Source of the DNA: Polyangiaceae bacterium | GTDB taxonomy: Bacteria; Myxococcota_A; Polyangia; Polyangiales; Polyangiaceae | Assembly: GCA_013214025.1 (NCBI GenBank) | Contig: JABSRN010000014.1 | Span: forward strand, 1-64,000 | Direction of reading: 5' to 3' | DNA length: 64,000 nt | Shown here: piece by piece, positions 17,074 through 29,910 of the stretch | How the letters are laid out: every line of letters begins with the position of its first letter | How positions within the stretch are numbered: the stretch's first letter is position 1 | Made by a program: the position numbers and the translations under genes | Notes under the pieces: generated by a model | Databases searched by the model: none | What the model was told of the DNA's origin: nothing | Seen by the model: only the letters and a program-made list of their open reading frames with translations

Positions 17074-17327
17074 CGGCGGGCTGTCTCCAGGGGGGGGTAA
17101 CGTGCGGGGCAAATTCTGCCCTAAAATCGACCCCTTGCGCATAGCAATCGACATCCTTTTTGTCGATATCGCCGGACACAGATTTTGTGGGGTTGTTTCG
17201 AGTTCTGTCTGGTGCAGGCCGCTGGGCGTCGGATTTGGGGCCGGAAAATCGGCACAATTTCAGGCTCACTACCCATACACCTGAATTGCGGAAATTCAGC
17301 GCTGTCGCTGATGGTACAGTCCCGCGG

Positions 17328-17543
17328 ATGCCGACCGACGTGGAAGCCCATATTACCGGCACAGTCTGGAAGATCGAGGTGTCCGCTGGCCAATCAGTGG
17401 CTCCCGAGGACACGCTGGTAATCATTGAATCCATGAAGATGGAGATGCCGGTAGAGGCTCCCCGCGCCGGTGTGGTGGGGGAGATCCGGGCCAAAGAGGG
17501 ACAGGCAGTAGCAGAAGGCGACGTGCTGCTTGTCCTCGAATGA
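17328..17543 (+). CDS. Biotin carboxyl carrier protein, single biotinyl domain
   Basis: A 71-residue protein consisting only of a biotinyl/lipoyl domain. The biotin attachment site is ESMKMEMPV with Lys37; the second half (GEIRAKEGQAVAEGDVLLVLE) completes the symmetric hammerhead fold. ATG 17328 is the start because the domain begins within eight residues; an upstream open frame has no coding look. Stand-alone carriers of this size serve acyl-CoA carboxylases or decarboxylases. The partner carboxylase is not in the window. The gene is 38 bases upstream of a lipoprotein gene. Confidence 0.9.
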   Translation: MPTDVEAHITGTVWKIEVSAGQSVAPEDTLVIIESMKMEMPVEAPRAGVVGEIRAKEGQAVAEGDVLLVLE

Positions 17544-18162: not shown

Positions 18163-19182
18163 TCATTCCCGCCAGAAAAACTTCCAGGGGTTGTGCTTCA
18201 GATCCCGCAGCATCTCTTGCACGTCGTCATAGAGCGCTTCGTCCATGACGATGGCGCCTAAGGTCCCACGACCCTCCTTGACGTGATTCACGAGGCCTTC
18301 GGCCTCTTTGGTGAAGCGCTTCGTCGTTGCGGTGATCTCACTCAGATCCGTCGTAATTTGCGCCAGACGCTGCCCCTGCTCCTCGGTGGCGACGACCGCC
18401 GTGAATCGGCGAATTTCTCCGACCATTTCGCGACTGTCCGTCAGCAATGGAGACAACTTGGTGTCGAGGGTAGCCGTGGTGCGTTCCACGTTGCCCATGA
18501 TTCGGTCGATTTGCGGGTTGTCGACGTATTTTTGCCGGGCGGCCACCAGGGTTTCGTCTGCGGTGACGGTGATTTTCTCAACGTTGGTGATGATGCGTTC
18601 GAGCTGTTCGCCGTTCTTGCCGAACAGCTTGCCGGTGCCGGTCAACGTGGCGTGCAGCCCGTCGAAGGTCTCGCCGATCTTCTCTTGATTGTTCGCAATG
18701 GCGACGTGTGTCCGATGCAACAAGTCGCTCATTTCGCTTAGCAACACGTCGATTCGCGGCGGGCTGATTCCGTGCACGATGGCGCCGTCTTCTAACAAGT
18801 CGCCGGGAGGGCCTGGCTCAACCGCAAGATACGCTTCACCGAGTACGCCCTGGGTGGTGACTAGGAATCGTGATTTTTTCGCGATGGAAGGCTGATAGCG
18901 TTTTTCGATTTTTGCGGCGACCCGAATGGGGGGCACGTGGTCGGTGCCGGACTGGGCTAATTCGCCGCCGCGAAACTCCATTTGGTCGACCTTGCCGATC
19001 TTCATTCCCGCCAATCGAACGGGCGCACCGTTCTGAAGGCCTCCGGGATTTTCGAAGTCCACGTACACCGTATAGGTGGACTCGAAGGTCATGCCGCCCA
19101 TGACGACGACGAAGCCCATCAGGATCGCGAGCGCGAACAAGATGAGGGTGCCGACCTTTACTTCAATAGCTCGCTGACTCAT
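18163..19182 (-). CDS. mlaD: MlaD-family (MCE) phospholipid-transport protein
   Basis: Substrate-binding component of an MCE lipid transporter, anchored in the inner membrane and facing the periplasm. The protein has one N-terminal span (VGTLILFALAILMGFVVVMGG), then the MCE domain at about residues 38-120 (YTVYVDFENPGGLQNGAPVRLAGMKIGKV, split by pattern), and a long helical tail of 200 residues that resembles the needle-forming extension of longer MCE proteins more than the short E. coli MlaD. It is the last gene of mlaE-mlaF-mlaD, 18 bases after mlaF. mlaB and mlaC are not in the run. Direction of transport cannot be told from the sequence. Confidence 0.9.
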   Translation of the reverse strand: MSQRAIEVKVGTLILFALAILMGFVVVMGGMTFESTYTVYVDFENPGGLQNGAPVRLAGMKIGKVDQMEFRGGELAQSGTDHVPPIRVAAKIEKRYQPSIAKKSRFLVTTQGVLGEAYLAVEPGPPGDLLEDGAIVHGISPPRIDVLLSEMSDLLHRTHVAIANNQEKIGETFDGLHATLTGTGKLFGKNGEQLERIITNVEKITVTADETLVAARQKYVDNPQIDRIMGNVERTTATLDTKLSPLLTDSREMVGEIRRFTAVVATEEQGQRLAQITTDLSEITATTKRFTKEAEGLVNHVKEGRGTLGAIVMDEALYDDVQEMLRDLKHNPWKFFWRE

Positions 19183-19200
19183 GGGGATTCTACATTATAG

Positions 19201-19956
19201 CTACGGCCCGCCGTCGAACACCATCGGTCCTTCAGCTTCTCCGTTAATGAACTGCTGCACGATGCCGTCATTTGAGGCTCGAAACTCGGCTGGCGTGCCC
19301 GATAGCCTCACTTGACCGCCATAAAGCATGACCACATGGTCGGCGATGCCCATGATCGACGCCAGATCGTGGGACACGACGATGCTGGTGACCCCCATGG
19401 AATCGCTCAGCTCGCGAATCAAACTGTCTACACGCCGGGCGCTCACGGGATCCAGGCTGGTGGTCGGTTCGTCGAACAGCACATATTTAGGTTCCAGCGT
19501 AAGTGCCCGGGCGATCGCGACGCGTTTGCGCATGCCGTCGCCGAGTTCGCTCGGGAAGCGAGTTGCGAACTCGCGGATATGCAGCCGTTCGAGCAGCTCT
19601 CCCGCCTTGAGCAGCACCTGTTTTTGAGTCATTTTTGTGTGTTTGCGCAGGGGCAGTGCGACGTTGTCCACGCAGGTCATGGAGTCGAAGAGCGTTGCGT
19701 GCTGAAACACCATGGCGCACTTTTTTCGGACCGGGGCCATCGCGATCTCGCTGAGCTGAGATACGTCCTCGCCGTCTAACAAGATCTCCCCGCTATCAGG
19801 CCGAATCAGGCCGATGAGGTGCTTGATCAGCACGCTCTTGCCGACCCCGGAGGCGCCGATAATGAAGAAAACCTTGCCGTCCGGAACGTCGAAACTAACG
19901 CCCTTGAGCACATGTTTTGTCCCGAAAGACTTCTGTACATTGCGGAATGAAATCAT
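19201..19956 (-). CDS. mlaF: MlaF-family ABC transporter ATPase
   Basis: Cytosolic ATPase of the MCE lipid transporter, 251 residues. Walker A is GASGVGKSVLIKHL, the signature is LGDGMRKRVAIARAL (the modified form of Mla/Ttg2 ATPases, with DGM in place of SGGQ), Walker B is YVLFDEPTTSLDP, and the switch His follows in VVSHD. It lies 13 bases after mlaE and 18 before mlaD, so the three are one transcript. Confidence 0.95.
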   Translation of the reverse strand: MISFRNVQKSFGTKHVLKGVSFDVPDGKVFFIIGASGVGKSVLIKHLIGLIRPDSGEILLDGEDVSQLSEIAMAPVRKKCAMVFQHATLFDSMTCVDNVALPLRKHTKMTQKQVLLKAGELLERLHIREFATRFPSELGDGMRKRVAIARALTLEPKYVLFDEPTTSLDPVSARRVDSLIRELSDSMGVTSIVVSHDLASIMGIADHVVMLYGGQVRLSGTPAEFRASNDGIVQQFINGEAEGPMVFDGGP

Positions 19957-19969
19957 CGGCAGCGCGGGG

Positions 19970-20809
19970 TCAGTCGATGAGCCAAAAGCCCACCATGCTG
20001 AGCAAGAGATCTAGGACGATAACAGTGAGCGACGAGTTGACGATAGCGCGGGTCGTGGCCCAACCGACGCCTTCGGATCCGCCGCGGGTGGTCAATCCAC
20101 AATGGCTGCTGGCCATGGGAATCGCTGTGCCGTACGCCAGGCACTTGGTGAGACCCAGCAAGACGTCGCCCCCGGAAACTCGGGAGAAATTCAAAAAAGT
20201 CCGCGGCGAGACCCCGAAGAACACTTGGGCTGTGAGGGCGCCGGTAGCGATGGCGACACATCCTGCGACCACGGTCAGCGCAGGTGTCATGATCATCGAC
20301 GCCAGTAGCCGCGGTTTGATGAGGTAATCCACGGGATCGGCAGCACACATGGTGAGCGCGTCCACCTGCTCGGTCACGACCATGCTGCCGATTTCGGCCG
20401 CGATGCCCGCACCCACTCGAGTGGCGAGCATGAACGCGCAGATCGTAGGCGCTAAGTCTTTTACGAGTAATTCGATAAACGTCGGTCCGAGAGAGGCCTG
20501 ATCAGCGACCACACGTTTCATCTGCTCGCCCGCTTGGTAAGCGAAGATCATGCCCATGAAGGCCATGACGACACACAAGAACAGCAACGAGCGATTGCCC
20601 ACTTGATACAGCTGGGAGCTGAGGAGACCGGGCTCCCTTCGACCGCGCAGTACATAGGTGAAGGTTCGTTGATACAGGCTCCAGAGCTCGCGCGCCGATC
20701 TCAACAGGTCCAGGCCGACGCCGCCGACCGAGACCAGTAGGTCCCGGAGCATATTCGGAGAATCCCGAGCCGGTGAGGAATCGGCGATGGTCATGACTAA
20801 CCGGAGCAT
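19970..20809 (-). CDS. mlaE: MlaE-family ABC transporter permease
   Basis: Inner-membrane permease of the MCE lipid transporter, 279 residues from ATG 20809, which has GAGGT upstream; ATG 20794 would remove five residues and an upstream ATG at 20857 would add sixteen basic residues. The MlaE core is recognisable from the amphipathic entry helix (VGNRSLLFLCVVMAFMGMIF) through the conserved RVGAGIAAEIGSMVVTEQVDAL to the last spans. It precedes mlaF and follows the SctJ-like gene by about 130 bases. Confidence 0.93.
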   Translation of the reverse strand: MLRLVMTIADSSPARDSPNMLRDLLVSVGGVGLDLLRSARELWSLYQRTFTYVLRGRREPGLLSSQLYQVGNRSLLFLCVVMAFMGMIFAYQAGEQMKRVVADQASLGPTFIELLVKDLAPTICAFMLATRVGAGIAAEIGSMVVTEQVDALTMCAADPVDYLIKPRLLASMIMTPALTVVAGCVAIATGALTAQVFFGVSPRTFLNFSRVSGGDVLLGLTKCLAYGTAIPMASSHCGLTTRGGSEGVGWATTRAIVNSSLTVIVLDLLLSMVGFWLID

Positions 20810-20943
20810 AACTCGACCTCGGCCGCTGCGAATGCGGAATCGCGCTGGCGGAGCCATGACAGTTGGAGATATGGCGGTCGCACGCCGGTAGCGCTCGCGG
20901 CGGGCAGGGGGTCTGGGGGTGGGGGCCCGTCGTCCTGGTCTAG

Positions 20944-21681
20944 TTATGCCTTATGTAGCTGCGGGGAATTATGTGGCCGGCGCCGAAATCTTATCCATAT
21001 TCCCAACCAAACCAGCAATTGGAGGAGATTCGCGGCAATGGCGGCGAGCGCTATCCATTTGAGCGACGGTCGAGATGTAGTCGGCGTCGGAGCCGGGCGT
21101 GGCCGGTGAAGGTGGCTGATGACCCGCACCGCCTCCGGGGACAGACCGGATACACCTTGGCTGACGAGGGATTGGATTTCGGAAGTCGTGATGGCAGCAG
21201 CGGCGTTTTTGGTCACCACGACTACGGCTTTTGGCGCGGGGGAAGGCGGGCCCAGTAGGGATTTCGAGGGCGGTGCGAGAGCGATGTGAACTCGGGCGCT
21301 GACGATGCCGTCTATGGCTTGCAAGGTCCGCTCAAGATCTCCTGACAATCCCGCGACGAGTCGGGCCTGTTCGACTACCCGACTCGGCACCAGAGCATCG
21401 TCAGGCAGCAGCTCCAGCGTGCCCGGTCCGTGGCGCTTGGGTAAAGCTTGGCGGGCGAGGAGAGTTGCGGCACGGGACAATTCCAGGGAGTCGACCATGA
21501 CTCGGTACTGCTTCGGAGAATCAGGATCCGCTTGCCGTGTTGCGGCAATATGGCCGTCTGCTAGGGCGCCGATCACTTCGGCGGCGGAGGTCTCGTCCAA
21601 AGCAACCGCCGCCGGTTGCTGACAGGCGGAGGTCAGCAGGGCCCACAACAGAAGTGAGCCTGTTCTCCGACTGCTCGCCAT
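20944..21681 (-). CDS. SctJ/FliF-like ring lipoprotein (T3SS-type), isolated
   Basis: A 245-residue lipoprotein (lipobox ALLTSAC) with the fold signature of YscJ/SctJ, which builds the inner ring of injectisomes and is related to FliF. Recognisable are the first ring domain (YRVMVDSLELSRAATLLARQALPKR split around DSLELSRA), the conserved LPDDALVPSRVVEQARLVAGL, then DLERTLQAIDGIVSARVHIAL, VVVTKNA and VSGLSPEAVRVI, followed by a C-terminal membrane span (AAIAANLLQLLVWLGIWI) and a basic tail, as in true SctJ. ATG 21681 is chosen, giving a compact signal peptide. No other secretion gene is visible in the window; it lies between the pseudokinase gene and mlaE. Confidence 0.78.
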   Translation of the reverse strand: MASSRRTGSLLLWALLTSACQQPAAVALDETSAAEVIGALADGHIAATRQADPDSPKQYRVMVDSLELSRAATLLARQALPKRHGPGTLELLPDDALVPSRVVEQARLVAGLSGDLERTLQAIDGIVSARVHIALAPPSKSLLGPPSPAPKAVVVVTKNAAAAITTSEIQSLVSQGVSGLSPEAVRVISHLHRPRPAPTPTTSRPSLKWIALAAIAANLLQLLVWLGIWIRFRRRPHNSPQLHKA

Positions 21682-21719
21682 GTCCCAGCTCATGCCCGAT
21701 GCTGGCCCGACCCAGGTGG

Positions 21720-23252
21720 CTACTGCGCCGCGAATCCGGTGCGGGTGACGTCCAGCTTCGGGTGGCTGGGGAAGCTCAGCTTGCGAACCGAGCCGGAGAT
21801 ACAGCGAGATACTCCCGCGTTGCGGGGCTTCGTCGTTACCGTGACGCCGACCGCTCGCCCATTTTGCACTGCTGCGCAGATGTTGATGGACATGCTGCTC
21901 GGGGCGCCGCAGTGACCGAAGTAGCTGCCGCTATTTAGCACGGCGCCGTACTGCGCACGGGTCAGATCCGCCTTGCCTTTGCCTCCGCCGATGGTGATTT
22001 CCTCATTGTAGGCGTTGATCGCGGCTTCGCAGCTGATGCCACCCGCGAGCTGGGGGATGCCCCCCCGGCTGCCGAGAATTCGTCTGCCGCCGCCGGCCTT
22101 TTTCTTGCCGCCTTTCAGCTCGCCTTCCATCTCCACACTGGTAACGGTTTCGCCCTGGACTTTCACGTCGTCGTTGCGGCTGCCGACTTGGGTGAACAAC
22201 CATGTGCCACCCAGGGCCAAAATGGCGCCGACGATGGCCACACCACCGAGCGCTTTTCCGCGAGTGCTCTTGGATTCGTTGGCGACCACCTGCTCGACGG
22301 CTACTTTTTCTGCGACGATCACCCGGTTGCGGCGGGCGTGTTCGGCGAATGGAGCGAATTCATTCCAGTCGGCGATCGAGCGTTCCAGTTGACTGAAGCT
22401 GTCGTGAAGAATGTCTTCTTCGACGAATGTGTTGGAGCCAATTTGCATCAGCAGCTCGACGGCGTTGAACGGGCCGTGGTCCATCCCGTCCTTTTTGACG
22501 ACGTATCGTGGGCGGGGATCGCTTTCGAGGCGGGCTTTGAGGGCGGTGAGTTCGTTGGTGGCGGCGTCCCCGCTCACCTGCACTTGGATGTTTTTGACTC
22601 GGATATTGTAGGGGGTACTCGGCTCGGGCGGCAGCATAGACATGGAAATATCCACATCGAAGTCGGATCCGTGATCGAGATCGCCGGAGGCCGGCGGCGG
22701 CGCCGGGACGCTTCCCCGCGGGGCCAGTCCGTGGATAGCTTGAGCTAGGGCGCGGAGGTCCGCCGGGCGATGAGCGGGGTCTGCGACTAAGGCTTTGCCG
22801 AGAACGCTTTCCAGGTCCTCCGGAATTTCCGGCACGAGTTCGCGAGGCCGGCGCATGCCGGGTCCGACGGTCTCTCCGGTCAGTAGCTCGTACATCATCG
22901 CGCCGATGGCAAACACGCTGGCTCGCGCGTTGCCTGGTTCACCTGAGCGCTCTTCTGGCGCCATACACGCTTGGTCCTTCGGCAAGGATGGAGCGTGTAT
23001 GGCCAGCTCCTCGGACATCATGTAGTTGCCGTTGACGTCCACTACGACGCTCGACGGGTGAACAAACAGGCTTTGCCCGTTGTCGTGTCGCTGGCCGAGT
23101 TCGACGCAAAGCGAAACGAGGATGGCTACGGTTTGTTGAACGTCGGCGCGCATGCCGCTGACGGCCGCTTCTTCAAGCTGTGCCCGCAGGGTGCCCGGAA
23201 TGATTGATGAGTCCACACTGTTGGAAATACCAACTCGGCGCTCGCCCGTCAC
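21720..23252 (-). CDS. Pseudokinase C-lobe / GYF-like / single-TM protein
   Basis: A 510-residue protein from GTG 23252. Residues 38-178 match the C-lobe of a Ser/Thr kinase (APE motif CMAPEE at 96-101, VFAIGAMMYELLTG, and ADPAHRPADLRAL), but there is no N-lobe, the catalytic loop reads FVHPSSVVVD instead of HRDLKPEN, and DFG is absent, so it cannot be an active kinase. Residues 248-305 resemble a GYF_2 domain (YVVKKDGMDHGPFNAVELL). A span at 334-352 and a periplasmic C-terminal domain with four Cys (408, 448, 459, 484) follow; this last domain is common in myxobacterial TonB-like or motility proteins. Its stop is 38 bases before the SctJ-like start. Confidence 0.75.
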   Translation of the reverse strand: MTGERRVGISNSVDSSIIPGTLRAQLEEAAVSGMRADVQQTVAILVSLCVELGQRHDNGQSLFVHPSSVVVDVNGNYMMSEELAIHAPSLPKDQACMAPEERSGEPGNARASVFAIGAMMYELLTGETVGPGMRRPRELVPEIPEDLESVLGKALVADPAHRPADLRALAQAIHGLAPRGSVPAPPPASGDLDHGSDFDVDISMSMLPPEPSTPYNIRVKNIQVQVSGDAATNELTALKARLESDPRPRYVVKKDGMDHGPFNAVELLMQIGSNTFVEEDILHDSFSQLERSIADWNEFAPFAEHARRNRVIVAEKVAVEQVVANESKSTRGKALGGVAIVGAILALGGTWLFTQVGSRNDDVKVQGETVTSVEMEGELKGGKKKAGGGRRILGSRGGIPQLAGGISCEAAINAYNEEITIGGGKGKADLTRAQYGAVLNSGSYFGHCGAPSSMSINICAAVQNGRAVGVTVTTKPRNAGVSRCISGSVRKLSFPSHPKLDVTRTGFAAQ

Positions 23253-23345
23253 TCACGCAGTCGAGATTTCCGTGGACGACGAGCTCAAGACCATGGGTCG
23301 AAGTGGGACCGGCCGCCGGTTTGGTACAGCCCCAATGTAGGTGCG

Positions 23346-24221
23346 CTAGATCGCGGTCTCGTCTTCGCGCTCGCCGCCGCGCCAAGGGTGCCGACGCTTC
23401 CGGTATTTGCCCTCAGCGAAACTTTGCAGGACGAACGCCAAGCGGGCCGACCCGCCGGCAGTCCATTCCTCCCGATGGAGGAAGTCGACCACTCGGCCCC
23501 CCACGCCGATGCGGCCAAATCCGCCGATGCAGTCGGTAGGAACATGTAGGTGCCGGAGCTCGAAGGCGAACTCTTCTGCGTTGACTCGAATCAGCCGGGT
23601 TTTGCGAAAAGCACGCTGCAGCAAGGGCTGATTGAGGCCGGTTTGGATTCGGTCACACTCGGGGCATTCGTCGGAGACCACCCAGAGGAGCGCCTGTTCG
23701 TTCGCCAGCAGAGCCACTGTTTGTTGGCGCCGAAGCTCTTGGTCGAGGGATTCGATCCCCCTGCCAATCTCCACCAGGTTTACCCGGCCGATTGCTTTCT
23801 CGGTCACGCCTGCGTCCATGTCGGCGTTCTGCGTCTGAGTATGGTGGTGGCTCGAAGCGCTCCGGAGGCTCGCCGGGGTGGCGCGGCTGGGCGCGGGTTC
23901 TAGGTTCGGGGTTTCCAGACTTCCCAACCACATTCCGAGCGCCGTTGCGGTGGACAGCAGACTGAAGGAGCCGACCGTGAGTGCTGCGCTGGCGATGGAG
24001 GACCCGCGGAGGTTCTGCGCGGTGCTGAGTTGAGTTCGGGCGACGAAGCCGAGCAGGATGGCCAGCCCGCCGAGGGGAGGAAAGACCAAGCTCCAAGAAG
24101 CGAGCACCAGGGCGAGCACAGCGGGTCGACTTAGATAGGTAGGCTGAGCGTTCTCCGCGACTCGCGCGCCGACCAACACCTGCGGGGTGTGGGACGGGAG
24201 GGGCTGCGCTTTCTGCGTCAC
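23346..24221 (-). CDS. Membrane protein with thioredoxin-like CPEC domain
   Basis: A 291-residue protein with two hydrophobic segments near the N-terminus (AVLALVLASWSLVFPPLGGLAILLGFVA; SIASAALTVGSFSLL) in DUF4190 style. A Pro/Ser/His-rich linker leads to a C-terminal thioredoxin-like part: ALLWVVSDECPECDRIQ has a CxxC motif in the expected place after a beta strand, followed by LIRVNAEEF and, further on, PTDCIGGFGRIGVGGRVVDFL, which takes the place of the cis-Pro strand. Thiol redox activity is an inference. It is 93 bases upstream of the pseudokinase gene on the same strand. I found no better family match. Confidence 0.6.
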   Translation of the reverse strand: MTQKAQPLPSHTPQVLVGARVAENAQPTYLSRPAVLALVLASWSLVFPPLGGLAILLGFVARTQLSTAQNLRGSSIASAALTVGSFSLLSTATALGMWLGSLETPNLEPAPSRATPASLRSASSHHHTQTQNADMDAGVTEKAIGRVNLVEIGRGIESLDQELRRQQTVALLANEQALLWVVSDECPECDRIQTGLNQPLLQRAFRKTRLIRVNAEEFAFELRHLHVPTDCIGGFGRIGVGGRVVDFLHREEWTAGGSARLAFVLQSFAEGKYRKRRHPWRGGEREDETAI

Positions 24222-24438: not shown

Positions 24439-27400
24439 ATGGATGCCAAAGCTATCGATTCACTTGTTCGGCGCCTCATCGCAGATCCTCACGACGAGGC
24501 GGCTATTCAGGAAGCCCACCGGGGAGGTCAGCAAGACCCTCGTGGTTACGCGGGCTTGCTCGAAAAAGTGGGAGCCGCCACTGCCGATCCCGCCCTCGCA
24601 AGCCACTGGTTAAACGAAGCCGCGAGCGTGTGGCAAACGACGTTAAATGACGCACATCGCGCGGCACGCGCGCTCATGATGGCTATCGATCGCGAGCCCA
24701 CGCGGCCGGAAGCTGCAGATCGTTTGGCGGAGCTCTATCGTGAGAAGGGCGACGCAAAAGGTCTGGTCGCGTTGTTGGAGCGTCGGGCAAAAGCCTTGGC
24801 TAGCGATGCCGGCGGTAATCCTGAAATTCTCGCTCAACTTGCGGGCCTGCACGAAGAGTTAGGTCAGCTGTGGTCCGGCGAGCAATTGGATAATGTCGAC
24901 AAGGCGATCGAGAACTATCAGCGCGCGTTGGGTCATGATCCTCGGAGCCAATTCTCGATCTATTCGCTCCGAGAAATTTACAAAGCCAAAGGCAACTACC
25001 TAGAGGCGATCCCGTATTTCGCTCAGGAGCAGGCCCTGGTCGAGGACCCCGATCGGCGGCACGCGTTGTGGCAAGACGAGGCCGAGGTCCGAAAGACTGC
25101 GGGCGATCTGCTCGGTTGTGCTCAAGTCTTTGAGTTGCTCCTGTCCGAGCGAGCCGAAGATCCCGAAGTGCAGCAGCAGTTGGCCGCTGCGATTCTCGAT
25201 GTGGTTCGCATGCGTGAGCCTATCGACGAGAGCATGAAGGCGGCCGGGGCGCAGCTGTTCGTGGCCCTGGCAGAGCTCTACCCCGGCGAGCACGCACTGG
25301 CGTATTCGACCTGTGCGTTGGAGGTGGTGCCCGGCCATGACCGAGCTGTGCAGCTTGCTATCCATTATGGCAACGAGCTCGGACGCATCGAAGAGGTCGC
25401 CACGTTTGCAGCCGCCTACGTCCAGTGCAACCCCAACGGGGTGCTCGCCGACGAGGCGAAAGCCGTAGCCGGGGCAGCGGCGCCGTTTGTTCACGTCGAC
25501 CCCGCCGACCAAACGGAAATCGATTTGTCTCCCGCTCATGAGGCTGCAGCGCAGTCAGCTTCGGCGCAGCAATCAGAGCCCGAAGCGGTGGCGATGCCTG
25601 AGCCGGCTCCTGAGGGGGCGCCGGAGACCGTAGCGCCCCCCGAAGAAGCGGGCCCAACGGTGGAAGCGGCGGCGAAGGTGCCCGCAGTATTTGACGAAGA
25701 GACTGCCGCCGGAGAGTTCGACGCCAGCGAGTTGCTCGAAGGCGAGATCGTCGACGAAGAACCGGCACCCGAGCCGGGCTCGATGGCGGTGCTGTTGGAA
25801 GAGGCTGCGCAGTTTCTCTCCAAGCGTCGAAAGAACGAAGCTGCTGGTCGCTACCGGGAAGTGCTCGCGCTCGACCCCACTCAGGCGGCCGCGCTGGCAT
25901 TTTTGCAAACCCATTTGCGACAGACCCGGAAGTACGCGGAGCTGCGAGACATGTTGCTAGTCGCCACCCGCGCTCCGGATGTGAGCGCAGAGGCGCGGGC
26001 GACTTGGTTTCGAGAGGTGGCGAGTCTCTGCGAAGCTCAGCTCCGTGATTTTGCAAGCGCTATCAGTGCTTGGCAACAGTTGCTCGCCTTAGAGCCTGGC
26101 GATGAGGAAACCGTCAAACGACTGAAACGATTGCTGGAGCGCGGAGGCAAATGGGACGAGCTCGCGGTCATGTTCGAGCAGCAGGCGGCCCAGGCTACCG
26201 ACAAAGAGGAACGCATCGCGCTAGAGAAGGATCTGGCGAAGCTGCACGAAGGTCGTCGCAAGGATCCCGCCGCGGCAGGTGAAGCTTGGGCGCGCATCGC
26301 CAACATCACTCCTGATGACGATACCGCGCTGAATACGGCCATTCGTCTCTTCGAAAGAGGCAAACGGCCGGACCTGGCGGAGGCCGCTATTTCCGACAAC
26401 GTAACGTTGGTCGAAGACGCGGCTATCAAGCTGGTGCTGTACACGAAACTCGGGGCCCTGAGGGAGGGCGCTGGCGCCCTAGACCGCGCCGCTGAGGCTT
26501 ACGCGGAAGGCGCTGCGGCGACCTCCGACCTCGGTCTATGGGAGGCGGCGGAGCGCTGTTATGCCGCGGGCGAAGATTGGGCGAACGCCGCCAGCGCGAT
26601 CGACGAACGCGCTCAGGTCGCAAGCGAAGATCTCGAAAAGGCGAATCTGTTCACTGTCGAGGCGGACTACTTGGTGCGGGCCGGCGACGAGAACGGAGCG
26701 ACGGATCGCCTCCAACAGGCATCGGCACTGGACCCACTGAACGACGCGACGGCGGCGTCCCTGGAGCAACGCTTGCTTGAGGCGGGACGCTTTGAAGATT
26801 TGGTGGTGCGCTTGCTCGAGCGGGCATCGAAGCTCGAAGACCCAGGTGCGCGGGTGTCCTACCGCCGCCGAGCGGCTAGTATTCAACGGGAGCAACTCGA
26901 AGATCCCTCCGCAGCTAGGGAGAGCCTCGAGCTGGTCCTGGCGGATGGGGAAGACCCAGGCGCGCTCAGCGAATTGGCGGAAGATTCGGAGGCTAACGGA
27001 GACTTCGCGGCGGCAGTGGAGCTGCTCGCCCGGCTGGGACGGGCGACGTCACACCCCGTCGAGGCGGTCGATATTTGCATCCGCGAGGCGCGGCTTCGGG
27101 TCGAGAGCTTGAGCGATCTAGCCGGGGCGATCGCTTGTTACGAGAGAGTTCTCGCTGAATACGATCCGAAGAACACGGATTGTTTTGTTGCCCTCGCCGA
27201 GTTGGAAGAGCAGCAGGGGGATCAAGCCGCTCTCGCGGCCTTGCTCGAACGACACCTGCAAATTGTGGACGACGCCGAGGGCAAGATCGAACTCTGTCAG
27301 CGACTCGCCACTTTGTACGAGACCGAATTGGATCTGCCGGGCAATGCCCTCCGCGCGTTGCGCATCGTTCATGAGCTCGATCCCGATGACTTCGATGCCG

Positions 27401-29910
27401 TACAGAGATTGTTGAATCTCGCCGAAGTGGCTGAGGAATGGGATTCCGTTGTTCTTCACACCAAAGAGCTCATCGAGGTCGAGGGGGATGAGGAAGAAAT
27501 TAGCGGCATGACCCGACGTTGTGCTGAAATCCTCCACGAAAAGCTCGAAAAGCACGAGGAAGCATTGAATCTACTCGCAGCTGTAGGCACCCAGGGCGAT
27601 CAAGCTTGTCGAGACTATTTCGTAGAGATGGGAGATGAGGTGGATGAAAAGATCCGCGTCGCGACCCAGCTCGTCGAATGGTTCCGGGAGTTCCCCTCCG
27701 GTAAGCGTCGGACCACTGCGCTGCATGGCGCCTTTGAGCGATTCGCCGAAGCGGGCAAACTGGAGGAAGCGGCGTCCGTAGCCAAAGATCTCGCTCACAC
27801 GCGTACCTTGGAAGCCAACGTTGCCGAGACGCTGGAAGGTATTGCTGTAGAGCTGAAAGATTTGGACGCTCTGGCGGTCGCCCAGCGCTTGCTCGTCAAG
27901 GAGTTGGGCGGTCCGGCTCGCTCGGAGGAGTTAGTTCGCCAGGCAGAGGTGATGATCTCAGCGGGCGTTGAACCGGTCGAAGCTGTCGAGCACGCTGAGC
28001 AAGGCATCAGCAGCACGCCACCGGAAGAAGTCGAGCCGCTCTTGGTCCGACTCGCCGCCCTCGTGAAGGCCCCCGGGCACGTTATTGACGTATACGAACG
28101 TCAGGTGACGCGGTGTAAAGCGCCTGAGGATCGGCTCAATGCTCTGGGGCGCGCCGCCCAAATTGCTGCCGACAAAGACGCTCTGGATCGCGCCAGGGAG
28201 TTCTTCGATCTGGCCATCCAGGGTGGGGTCCAAGAAGAGACTCTTGCTGTACTCGAGGCCATCGCCAAAGAGACGGACCAACTCTCAGACAACAAGAAGC
28301 TTCGCACCACACTAGCCGAAGCCTTGGCCGGCGGCGGACAAGGATCGCGCGACGGCGGCCGGACGAGAAGCGCGCTGCTGTTGCGTGCCGCGACCATCGC
28401 TCACGTTGAGCTCGCGGATGTACAGAAGGCTTTCGAATGGGTGGGTGACGCTCTGGTTACCCATGTGGACGATGAAGGGCTTCAGGCCTTGGATGCCCTG
28501 GGTGCGGACGCCGATGACTACGGCAAGGTCGAGGCGGTGCTCGCTCGCGCGCTCGAAGAAGTGTTCGATGGTCCCTTGGTAAGAAAATTGTTGGCGGCTC
28601 GCGCTGACGTTCGGCTCCAACATCTGGATGACATGAAGGGGGCGGCGGTTGACCTGAAACGCCTGCACGATCTGACTCCAGGCGACGCCGAAGTCATGGG
28701 ACAGCTATCCAGTCTCTACACGGAGTTGAAAGATTTCCGAGGCATGGTCGCCCTGTTCGAAGACCAGATCCTGCGTGGCCGCGATCAGGGAGCCCGGGCG
28801 GAGCTCGCTCGCCAGGTAGCGCTGTTGTGGGAGAACGAACTCGATGACCCGCGGGAAGCGGCGGATGCGTGGAGGCGCGTGCTACGGATGAAGTCCGGGG
28901 ACGAGCAAGCGAAGGCCGGTCTCGATAAGGCGAAGGCTGACATGTTGGCGCGAAAATCCGAGCTGGCCGAGCGCGCGGCAAAAGAAGAGGCCGAGCGAAT
29001 TGCGGCCAAGGAAGCTGAGGAAAAGGAAGCGGCTGACCAACAGGCGGCTGCCGAGCAAGCCGAGGCGGACGGACTCGCAGAGGCGGAGCACGCAGCAGCC
29101 GACGCGGTTGACGATGACGCAGACCCAGCCGACGACGCGCCGGATGAAGCCGAGACAACTGATGACGAAGGCGCGTCTGACGCGGACGCAACAGACGCAG
29201 ACGCAACAGACGCAGTGTCAGCGGATGGCGACGAAGATTCGCAGGACGGTGGCGAGCTGCCGGAAGGGGACGTTGACGCCGAGAGCACCGAGGTGCGGGA
29301 AGAGAGCGGGCCTGTAGAGGTAGTCGGGTCGGCCGACGCCAGCCATGAATTAGACGTGGCTACGAATCCGCCGCCGCCCGAGGAGTCAGCTGTGGAGGGT
29401 GTCGGAACGGCGTTTGAGACGGCGTTGAGCGCCGACGATTCGACGGAGCCCGAAGAAGTCGTCCCAGAGCCAACGGACGACGTGGTGGCTGAAGATGACG
29501 CAGACGATGACGGCGATGACGATGACCTGGGCGCCGACGTAGACGACGTGATGGGCTCGGTGCCACCGCCGCCCGCGAGCGGCGGCTCCCGAAGTACGCC
29601 GCCCCCTCCGCCACCGCCGCCACCGGCTTCCGGCATGGGCGCGCTCCCGCCCCCCGCGGTGCCCGGTTCGGTCCGCCCGCCCCCCCCGCCGCCGCCAACC
29701 TCAAGTCGAGGGGGCTTGCCGCCGTCGACTTCGAGTCGTGGGGCCTTGCCGCCGCCACCACCGCCGACTTCGAGTCGTGGGGCCTTGCCGCCACCACCAC
29801 CGCCGACTTCGAGTCGTGGGGCCTTGCCGCCCCCCCCGCCGCCCCCGCCCCCGGAGGCGGCCGAAGACGAACTCGTGGATGACTCCGAGCTCATGCTCGA
29901 AGACGACTGA
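24439..29910 (+). CDS. Giant TPR-repeat protein with acidic and Pro-rich tail
   Basis: An 1823-residue protein built almost wholly of TPR-like helical pairs (examples: AIENYQRALGHDPRSQFSIY, AGRYREVLALDPTQAAALAF, AIACYERVLAEYDPKNTDC). An acidic low-complexity insert lies at about 370-445. From about 1500 the chain is Ala/Glu/Lys helix, then strongly acidic, then Pro-rich (1700-1810) with a 13-residue repeat of the form TSSRGALPPPPPP, and it ends acidic. No signal peptide is seen, so it is probably cytosolic, a scaffold for large assemblies; large TPR proteins are needed for gliding motility in Myxococcus, but I cannot assign this one. The ATG at 24439 starts directly with repeat-like sequence. 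Confidence 0.85.
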   Translation: MDAKAIDSLVRRLIADPHDEAAIQEAHRGGQQDPRGYAGLLEKVGAATADPALASHWLNEAASVWQTTLNDAHRAARALMMAIDREPTRPEAADRLAELYREKGDAKGLVALLERRAKALASDAGGNPEILAQLAGLHEELGQLWSGEQLDNVDKAIENYQRALGHDPRSQFSIYSLREIYKAKGNYLEAIPYFAQEQALVEDPDRRHALWQDEAEVRKTAGDLLGCAQVFELLLSERAEDPEVQQQLAAAILDVVRMREPIDESMKAAGAQLFVALAELYPGEHALAYSTCALEVVPGHDRAVQLAIHYGNELGRIEEVATFAAAYVQCNPNGVLADEAKAVAGAAAPFVHVDPADQTEIDLSPAHEAAAQSASAQQSEPEAVAMPEPAPEGAPETVAPPEEAGPTVEAAAKVPAVFDEETAAGEFDASELLEGEIVDEEPAPEPGSMAVLLEEAAQFLSKRRKNEAAGRYREVLALDPTQAAALAFLQTHLRQTRKYAELRDMLLVATRAPDVSAEARATWFREVASLCEAQLRDFASAISAWQQLLALEPGDEETVKRLKRLLERGGKWDELAVMFEQQAAQATDKEERIALEKDLAKLHEGRRKDPAAAGEAWARIANITPDDDTALNTAIRLFERGKRPDLAEAAISDNVTLVEDAAIKLVLYTKLGALREGAGALDRAAEAYAEGAAATSDLGLWEAAERCYAAGEDWANAASAIDERAQVASEDLEKANLFTVEADYLVRAGDENGATDRLQQASALDPLNDATAASLEQRLLEAGRFEDLVVRLLERASKLEDPGARVSYRRRAASIQREQLEDPSAARESLELVLADGEDPGALSELAEDSEANGDFAAAVELLARLGRATSHPVEAVDICIREARLRVESLSDLAGAIACYERVLAEYDPKNTDCFVALAELEEQQGDQAALAALLERHLQIVDDAEGKIELCQRLATLYETELDLPGNALRALRIVHELDPDDFDAVQRLLNLAEVAEEWDSVVLHTKELIEVEGDEEEISGMTRRCAEILHEKLEKHEEALNLLAAVGTQGDQACRDYFVEMGDEVDEKIRVATQLVEWFREFPSGKRRTTALHGAFERFAEAGKLEEAASVAKDLAHTRTLEANVAETLEGIAVELKDLDALAVAQRLLVKELGGPARSEELVRQAEVMISAGVEPVEAVEHAEQGISSTPPEEVEPLLVRLAALVKAPGHVIDVYERQVTRCKAPEDRLNALGRAAQIAADKDALDRAREFFDLAIQGGVQEETLAVLEAIAKETDQLSDNKKLRTTLAEALAGGGQGSRDGGRTRSALLLRAATIAHVELADVQKAFEWVGDALVTHVDDEGLQALDALGADADDYGKVEAVLARALEEVFDGPLVRKLLAARADVRLQHLDDMKGAAVDLKRLHDLTPGDAEVMGQLSSLYTELKDFRGMVALFEDQILRGRDQGARAELARQVALLWENELDDPREAADAWRRVLRMKSGDEQAKAGLDKAKADMLARKSELAERAAKEEAERIAAKEAEEKEAADQQAAAEQAEADGLAEAEHAAADAVDDDADPADDAPDEAETTDDEGASDADATDADATDAVSADGDEDSQDGGELPEGDVDAESTEVREESGPVEVVGSADASHELDVATNPPPPEESAVEGVGTAFETALSADDSTEPEEVVPEPTDDVVAEDDADDDGDDDDLGADVDDVMGSVPPPPASGGSRSTPPPPPPPPPASGMGALPPPAVPGSVRPPPPPPPTSSRGGLPPSTSSRGALPPPPPPTSSRGALPPPPPPTSSRGALPPPPPPPPPEAAEDELVDDSELMLEDD
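29728..29844 (+). repeat. 39-bp tandem repeats in the TPR protein's tail
   Basis: Copies start at 29728, 29767 and 29806, each beginning acttcgagtcgtggggcctt and encoding TSSRGALPPPPPP; a diverged copy precedes the first. Copy number is likely to vary and to keep the frame (39 is a multiple of three). Confidence 0.85.

Follow-up and report, generated by a model that had tools for sequence, protein, structure and literature searches.

The six-gene unit

The window, the whole stretch of DNA that was analysed, spans 64,000 nucleotides of contig C46; the assembly (G000) measures 5.77 Mb and is 97% complete. Between positions 18163 and 24221 it holds six genes on one strand:

18163-19182, minus strand: MlaD, with a single MCE domain, an N-terminal transmembrane (TM) segment and a long helical C-terminus (Pfam MlaD PF02470, 4.5e-17)
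19201-19956, minus strand: MlaF2 ATPase, with Walker A/B intact (Pfam ABC_tran, 1.2e-32)
19970-20857, minus strand: MlaE2, a permease of a second MlaE type (Pfam MlaE PF02405, 2e-57)
20858-20943, no strand: intergenic gap between the SctJ and MlaE2 genes, 86 nt by the longest MlaE reading frame and ~134-150 nt if MlaE begins at its likely start
20944-21693, minus strand: SctJ-like lipoprotein, with a YscJ domain and a C-terminal TM (Pfam YscJ_FliF PF01514, 3.4e-21)
21720-23252, minus strand: pseudokinase/GYF protein (PK), a pseudokinase C-lobe followed by GYF, a TM helix and a periplasmic AgmX/PglI/TonB_C-like tail
23346-24221, minus strand: Trx-like membrane protein, DUF4190-like hydrophobic helices followed by a thioredoxin-fold domain with CPEC, starting at GTG

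The initial annotation had described six minus-strand genes encoding Trx-like, pseudokinase/GYF, SctJ-like, MlaE, MlaF and MlaD proteins. The positions of the open reading frames agree with it, and the identities are upheld by profile and fold matches. From Trx to MlaD, the genes are separated by 93, 26, 86-150, 13 and 18 nt. The third value is set by the MlaE start, since 19970-20857 is the longest frame and a start at 20794 or 20809 is probable. The gaps of 93, 13 and 18 nt are thus as first given and the reported ~130 bases fall within the range, whereas the second gap is 26 nt and not 38. The combination was also called unusual, and it is. The neighbourhood is found again in dozens of genera when relatives are compared, which is above chance.

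The flanks of the unit are conserved as well. On the plus strand, a small biotin/lipoyl-carrier protein (17160-17543) adjoins MlaD and is the same neighbour in many relatives. A gene for an 1823-aa TPR-repeat protein with a proline-rich tail (24439-29910, plus strand) is divergent from the Trx gene and adjoins it across the family. Downstream of the unit, pyrF and a SpoU methylase gene are also conserved in relatives.

Conserved gene order and the gap

With genes placed by homology, the full order in relatives of the same family is Trx-PK-SctJ-MlaF1-MlaE1-MlaE2-MlaF2-MlaD, of which the window has only MlaE2, MlaF2 and MlaD as Mla genes. Most of its carriers go by the name of Polyangiaceae or Myxococcales MAGs. 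A 4-nt overlap joins SctJ and MlaF1 in 19 of 27 loci of the family, a count made after three of 30 rows, from family f5 and with a gene between the two, were left out. PK-SctJ-MlaF1 is present in families f8 and f9 too. It is looser in f5, where the one intervening gene appears from its sequence to encode a Glu/Leu dehydrogenase. In families f3 and f6, PK stays beside SctJ and the Mla genes lie elsewhere.

The site of the widest gap in the unit is occupied by MlaF1 and MlaE1 in relatives. In the MlaE tree, the window protein falls inside the MlaE2 clade (support 100/100), and the genome has its own MlaE1 (C80:38165-38957) and MlaF1 (C80:12613-13347) on another contig, 25 kb from one another. 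For these reasons, the ~130-nt gap marks the spot left by mlaF1 and mlaE1, both relocated to contig C80. The interval 20858-20943 has no room for a remnant of either gene of useful length. Other genera show comparable relocations; in G027, for instance, MlaE1-MlaE2 lies 0.33 Mb from SctJ-MlaF1.

One suggestion of the initial annotation was a chance junction of two operons at the 130-base gap. The gap is indeed the widest of the unit, and the window alone offers no homologous pair that spans it. However, relatives have MlaF1 and MlaE1 at that position, overlapped with SctJ, and both genes survive elsewhere in the genome of the window. A promoter and terminator in 20810-20943, together with separated genes in relatives, had been named as evidence against a joint unit; no terminator-like site was found in the gap, and promoter-like sites were not above shuffles (2 versus 1.4 +/- 1.1). 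Synteny and the relocated genes rule out a chance junction for practical purposes, leaving it a negligible probability. The six-gene unit is an inherited arrangement, most probably a rearranged version of an operon passed down within this order of Myxococcota.

The Mla proteins and their two ATPases

The assignment to the Mla/Mce lipid ABC transporters follows from an MlaE-fold permease (PF02405, 2e-57) and from an MCE protein encoded with the permease and an ATPase on one strand, with gaps of 13 and 18 nt. Scores lie under the E. coli-type equivalog cut-offs for MlaD (71 of 135 bits), MlaE (144.5 of 315) and MlaF (212.5 of 441). The window proteins belong to the same family as E. coli Mla and to another subtype.

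The two ATPase types differ in their catalytic motifs. MlaF1 has LSGGQ and a serine at the switch-histidine position in 30/30 sequences, and MlaF2 has the signature LGDG[M/L] with the switch histidine present in 23/23. The window MlaF2 has His196 as its switch residue and the atypical signature LGDGM at residues 138-142, and the MlaF1 of the same genome, on C80, keeps LSGGQ with a threonine at the switch position (VSTD). E. coli MlaF, for comparison, combines LSGGM with the switch histidine. Such complementary loss of motifs in two paralogues is that of heterodimeric ABC ATPases with one degenerate site. Because LSGGQ without the histidine is matched by the histidine with LGDG[M/L], the motifs are suggestive of an MlaF1/MlaF2 heterodimer, with one standard composite ATP site predicted.

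Most relatives without SctJ have MlaF2 in the opposite orientation between MlaE2 and MlaD, which means that their Mla genes no longer form a single operon.

The pseudokinase and thioredoxin-like proteins

The predicted structure of PK matches the C-lobe of PknB. The N-lobe of an active Ser/Thr kinase is absent and its HRD and DFG motifs are lost. Among 27 members, GYF_2 is matched in 5 and the AgmX/PglI tail (myxo_SS_tail) in 13, with weak scores, and TonB_C occurs as an alternative tail. The GltJ model matches 3 of the 27 weakly, and the PK of the window is not among them. PK was also considered as an analogue of SctD of the type III secretion system (T3SS), on the grounds of its cytoplasmic regulatory domain, TM and periplasmic domain and its SctJ neighbour. 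This candidate is disfavoured, as PK remains next to MlaF1 in genomes that lack SctJ and SctR, and no ring-building domain was seen in it.

The predicted structure of the Trx-like protein gives fold matches to thioredoxin and DsbD-gamma, and its CxxC is invariant in 16 relatives. Its N-terminal part matches DUF4190 under the cut-off (5e-7).

SctJ and the dispersed T3SS

The SctJ-like protein has the YscJ domain, lipobox and C-terminal TM of the T3SS inner-ring lipoprotein. It matches TIGR02544 at 7.7e-31 (107 of 162 bits, under the equivalog cut-off) and the PDB entries of PrgK/MxiJ down to 2e-12, and the cysteine of its lipobox LTSAC, Cys24, is invariant in 22 sequences. In the SctJ tree it groups with the T3SS SctJ of Anaeromyxobacter (100/100), in a myxobacterial clade apart from injectisomes. 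A genome search finds it to be the sole YscJ/FliF protein in the genome of the window.

Other T3SS export components of this genome are identified on separate contigs: SctV on C52, SctR on C62, where it adjoins a FliO-like gene and an aspartokinase gene, and SctU on C172. Wide spacing is also found in complete genomes, where sctR, sctU, sctV and sctJ are far apart; in the single-contig genome G019 they lie at 1.07, 4.24, 4.50 and 4.76 Mb, respectively. In Anaeromyxobacter and one Myxococcaceae genome, the T3SS genes form one cluster with SctJ. By homology, the SctJ of the window is most plausibly part of the needle-less myxobacterial T3SS, the genes of which are scattered singly here.

Several further observations concern this system. 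The dispersed genes keep steady neighbours, sctR with the fliO-like and aspartokinase genes and sctV with FIST and PP2C-like genes. The SctJ of the window has a long branch (1.93) and is missing the conserved LGPITVTRGS linker, and SctU (C172:39897-40811) has diverged too; the T3SS of this genome may be fast-evolving or decaying. On contig C108, a 438-aa frame matches FHIPEP (FlhA/SctV) over the C-terminal portion of the family alone, close to FlgK-like and sigma-factor-like genes. The genome yielded no FliF and a single FliP-family gene, and the fragment is either a flagellar remnant or an assembly loss.

Co-occurrence of the components

With E-value bands used to separate SctR from flagellar FliP, and match range to separate SctJ from FliF, a coarse division, SctJ and non-flagellar SctR occur together in 71 genomes of the order (at least 90% completeness), SctJ alone in 4, SctR alone in 7 and neither in 27 (p 4e-15), with p 1e-8 at genus level and, within the family, 38 genomes with both, 3 with SctJ only, 3 with SctR only and 24 with neither (p 5e-12), all Fisher values that overstate independence, since the relatives are mostly MAGs of common ancestry. 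The family count is corrected for G010, which was first scored as SctR-only and carries a divergent SctJ ahead of MlaF1. MlaE1 shows no association with SctJ (p 0.39): within the family, 36 genomes have both, 5 SctJ only, 26 MlaE1 only and 1 neither, so MlaE1 is present in 36/41 SctJ-bearing and 26/27 SctJ-less genomes.

MlaE1, MlaF1 and PK remain in genomes that have lost SctJ. Of the 15 genomes without SctJ that reach 90% completeness, 13 keep PK and 13 keep MlaF1; in 10 of the 13 with both genes, MlaF1 comes directly after PK (counting less complete genomes, the direct pair occurs in 11 without SctJ). The exceptions include two from one genus and one interrupted by contig ends. The MlaE1-MlaE2-MlaF2-MlaD block, with MlaF2 inverted, is usually kept beside the conserved pyrF neighbourhood.

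Since SctJ follows SctR and MlaE1 does not track SctJ, SctJ appears to be a separable T3SS component lodged between PK and MlaF1. PK would go with MlaF1 and the lipid transporter, because it usually stands directly before mlaF1 where SctJ is missing. The distribution is that expected of one conserved operon holding parts of two machines, each apparently losable separately.

Proposed organization and alternatives

The explanation that fits best, and is held with moderate confidence, is that the unit derives by rearrangement from an old operon encoding an asymmetric Mla transporter and PK, with sctJ of a scattered T3SS between PK and mlaF1 and a probable common transcript. The core of the operon would be an Mla/Mce-type lipid ABC transporter composed of MlaE1, MlaE2, MlaF1, MlaF2 and one MlaD. 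The bitopic PK is encoded beside mlaF1, with the gene for the inner-membrane ring lipoprotein, sctJ, between them, and in the genome of the window mlaF1 and mlaE1 have moved to another contig. In the predicted MlaF1/MlaF2 pair, Walker A/B and the histidine of MlaF2 would face LSGGQ of MlaF1 to form the hydrolysing site. This heterodimer would drive MlaE1/MlaE2, and lipid, the presumed substrate, would pass through the MlaD ring. On the cytoplasmic side, PK may act on MlaF1 as a regulator, as MlaB does in E. coli, and it may sense the envelope with its periplasmic tail. SctJ would be translated from the same message and work in the T3SS ring.

A single envelope machine was the other suggestion of the initial annotation. 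In such a machine, a periplasmic ring of SctJ recruited from secretion would dock on or scaffold MlaFED, with PK and Trx as subunits. In its favour, sctJ and mlaF1 are translationally coupled in 19/27 loci and the order is kept across several families, and both the MlaD and SctJ families form periplasmic rings. However, SctJ follows SctR and not Mla, MlaE1 is nearly as widespread with SctJ as without it, and MlaE1, MlaF1 and PK are kept intact where SctJ is gone. The genome of the window also has no second YscJ/FliF protein to serve its T3SS. A dedicated Mla subunit is thus disfavoured for SctJ by co-occurrence, and the obligate complex is improbable; the conserved operon within the same suggestion holds.

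A somewhat better case, though still an unlikely one, can be made for sctJ simply residing in a stable housekeeping neighbourhood, the overlap with mlaF1 having no meaning beyond shared transcription. Steady adjacency alone is no proof of shared function, because other dispersed T3SS genes hold equally stable neighbours of unrelated function, and the downstream pyrF and SpoU methylase genes are conserved here as well. Against this, the pairs PK-SctJ, SctJ-MlaF1 and PK-MlaF1 are repeatedly retained through different rearrangements, above background order. The favoured explanation, an inherited operon with parts of two machines, has its own difficulty in families f3 and f6, where PK with SctJ and Mla genes elsewhere cut against PK as a partner of Mla only.

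Implications

The lineage comprises (mostly uncultured) myxobacterial relatives in which a T3SS ring protein is encoded inside an old, apparently asymmetric lipid-pump operon. An Mla-type transporter that apparently needs two ATPases is a natural system for counting the ATP sites that lipid movement needs, and the pseudokinase is a candidate Mla regulator in bacteria where no MlaB is seen in the operon. The T3SS can persist long as scattered single genes, and the place of its ring gene is now located. As a tentative and rather doubtful extension, Polyangia-type Myxococcota might run an asymmetric Mla under a transmembrane pseudokinase, co-expressed with a dispersed needle-less T3SS, with lipid supply or envelope remodelling going along with secretion in prey attack.

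Comparison with known systems

GltJ presumably consists of a GYF domain, a single TM helix and an AgmX/PglI-type periplasmic tail. PK shares these elements with GltJ/AgmX-type myxobacterial transducers and differs by its N-terminal pseudokinase.

The needle-less T3SS of M. xanthus (T3SS*; PMC10433427, PMC3459982) is encoded in one gene cluster, MXAN_2434-2464, and its secretin and needle are absent (PMC10433427). The SctJ described here is in the same clade as that of the Anaeromyxobacter cluster and likewise accompanies SctR, SctU and SctV. Unlike T3SS*, the genes are scattered singly, with sctJ inside a lipid-transport operon.

MlaFEDB of E. coli (TIGR04430, NF008809, NF033619; PDB 6xbd) shares MlaE, MlaF and MlaD in one operon with clear homology, and has MlaF and MlaE in two copies each (PMC7790496). 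In contrast, the window-type operon has two MlaE and two MlaF types and the LGDG[M/L] signature of MlaF2; a scan of the six genes finds no MlaB STAS gene, and a pseudokinase-GYF protein is encoded instead. Mycobacterial Mce1 has a YrbE1A/YrbE1B permease heterodimer and a homodimer of one ATPase, MceG (PMC9882608). Two different MlaE-type permeases are thus common to both systems, whereas one MCE gene is found here and six in Mce1. No report of two ATPases in one Mce transporter was found in searches of open-access papers, and the pair of MlaF ATPases with complementary degenerate motifs appears to be a new feature. The heterodimer with one standard ATP site that it predicts would differ from both E. 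coli MlaF and mycobacterial MceG.
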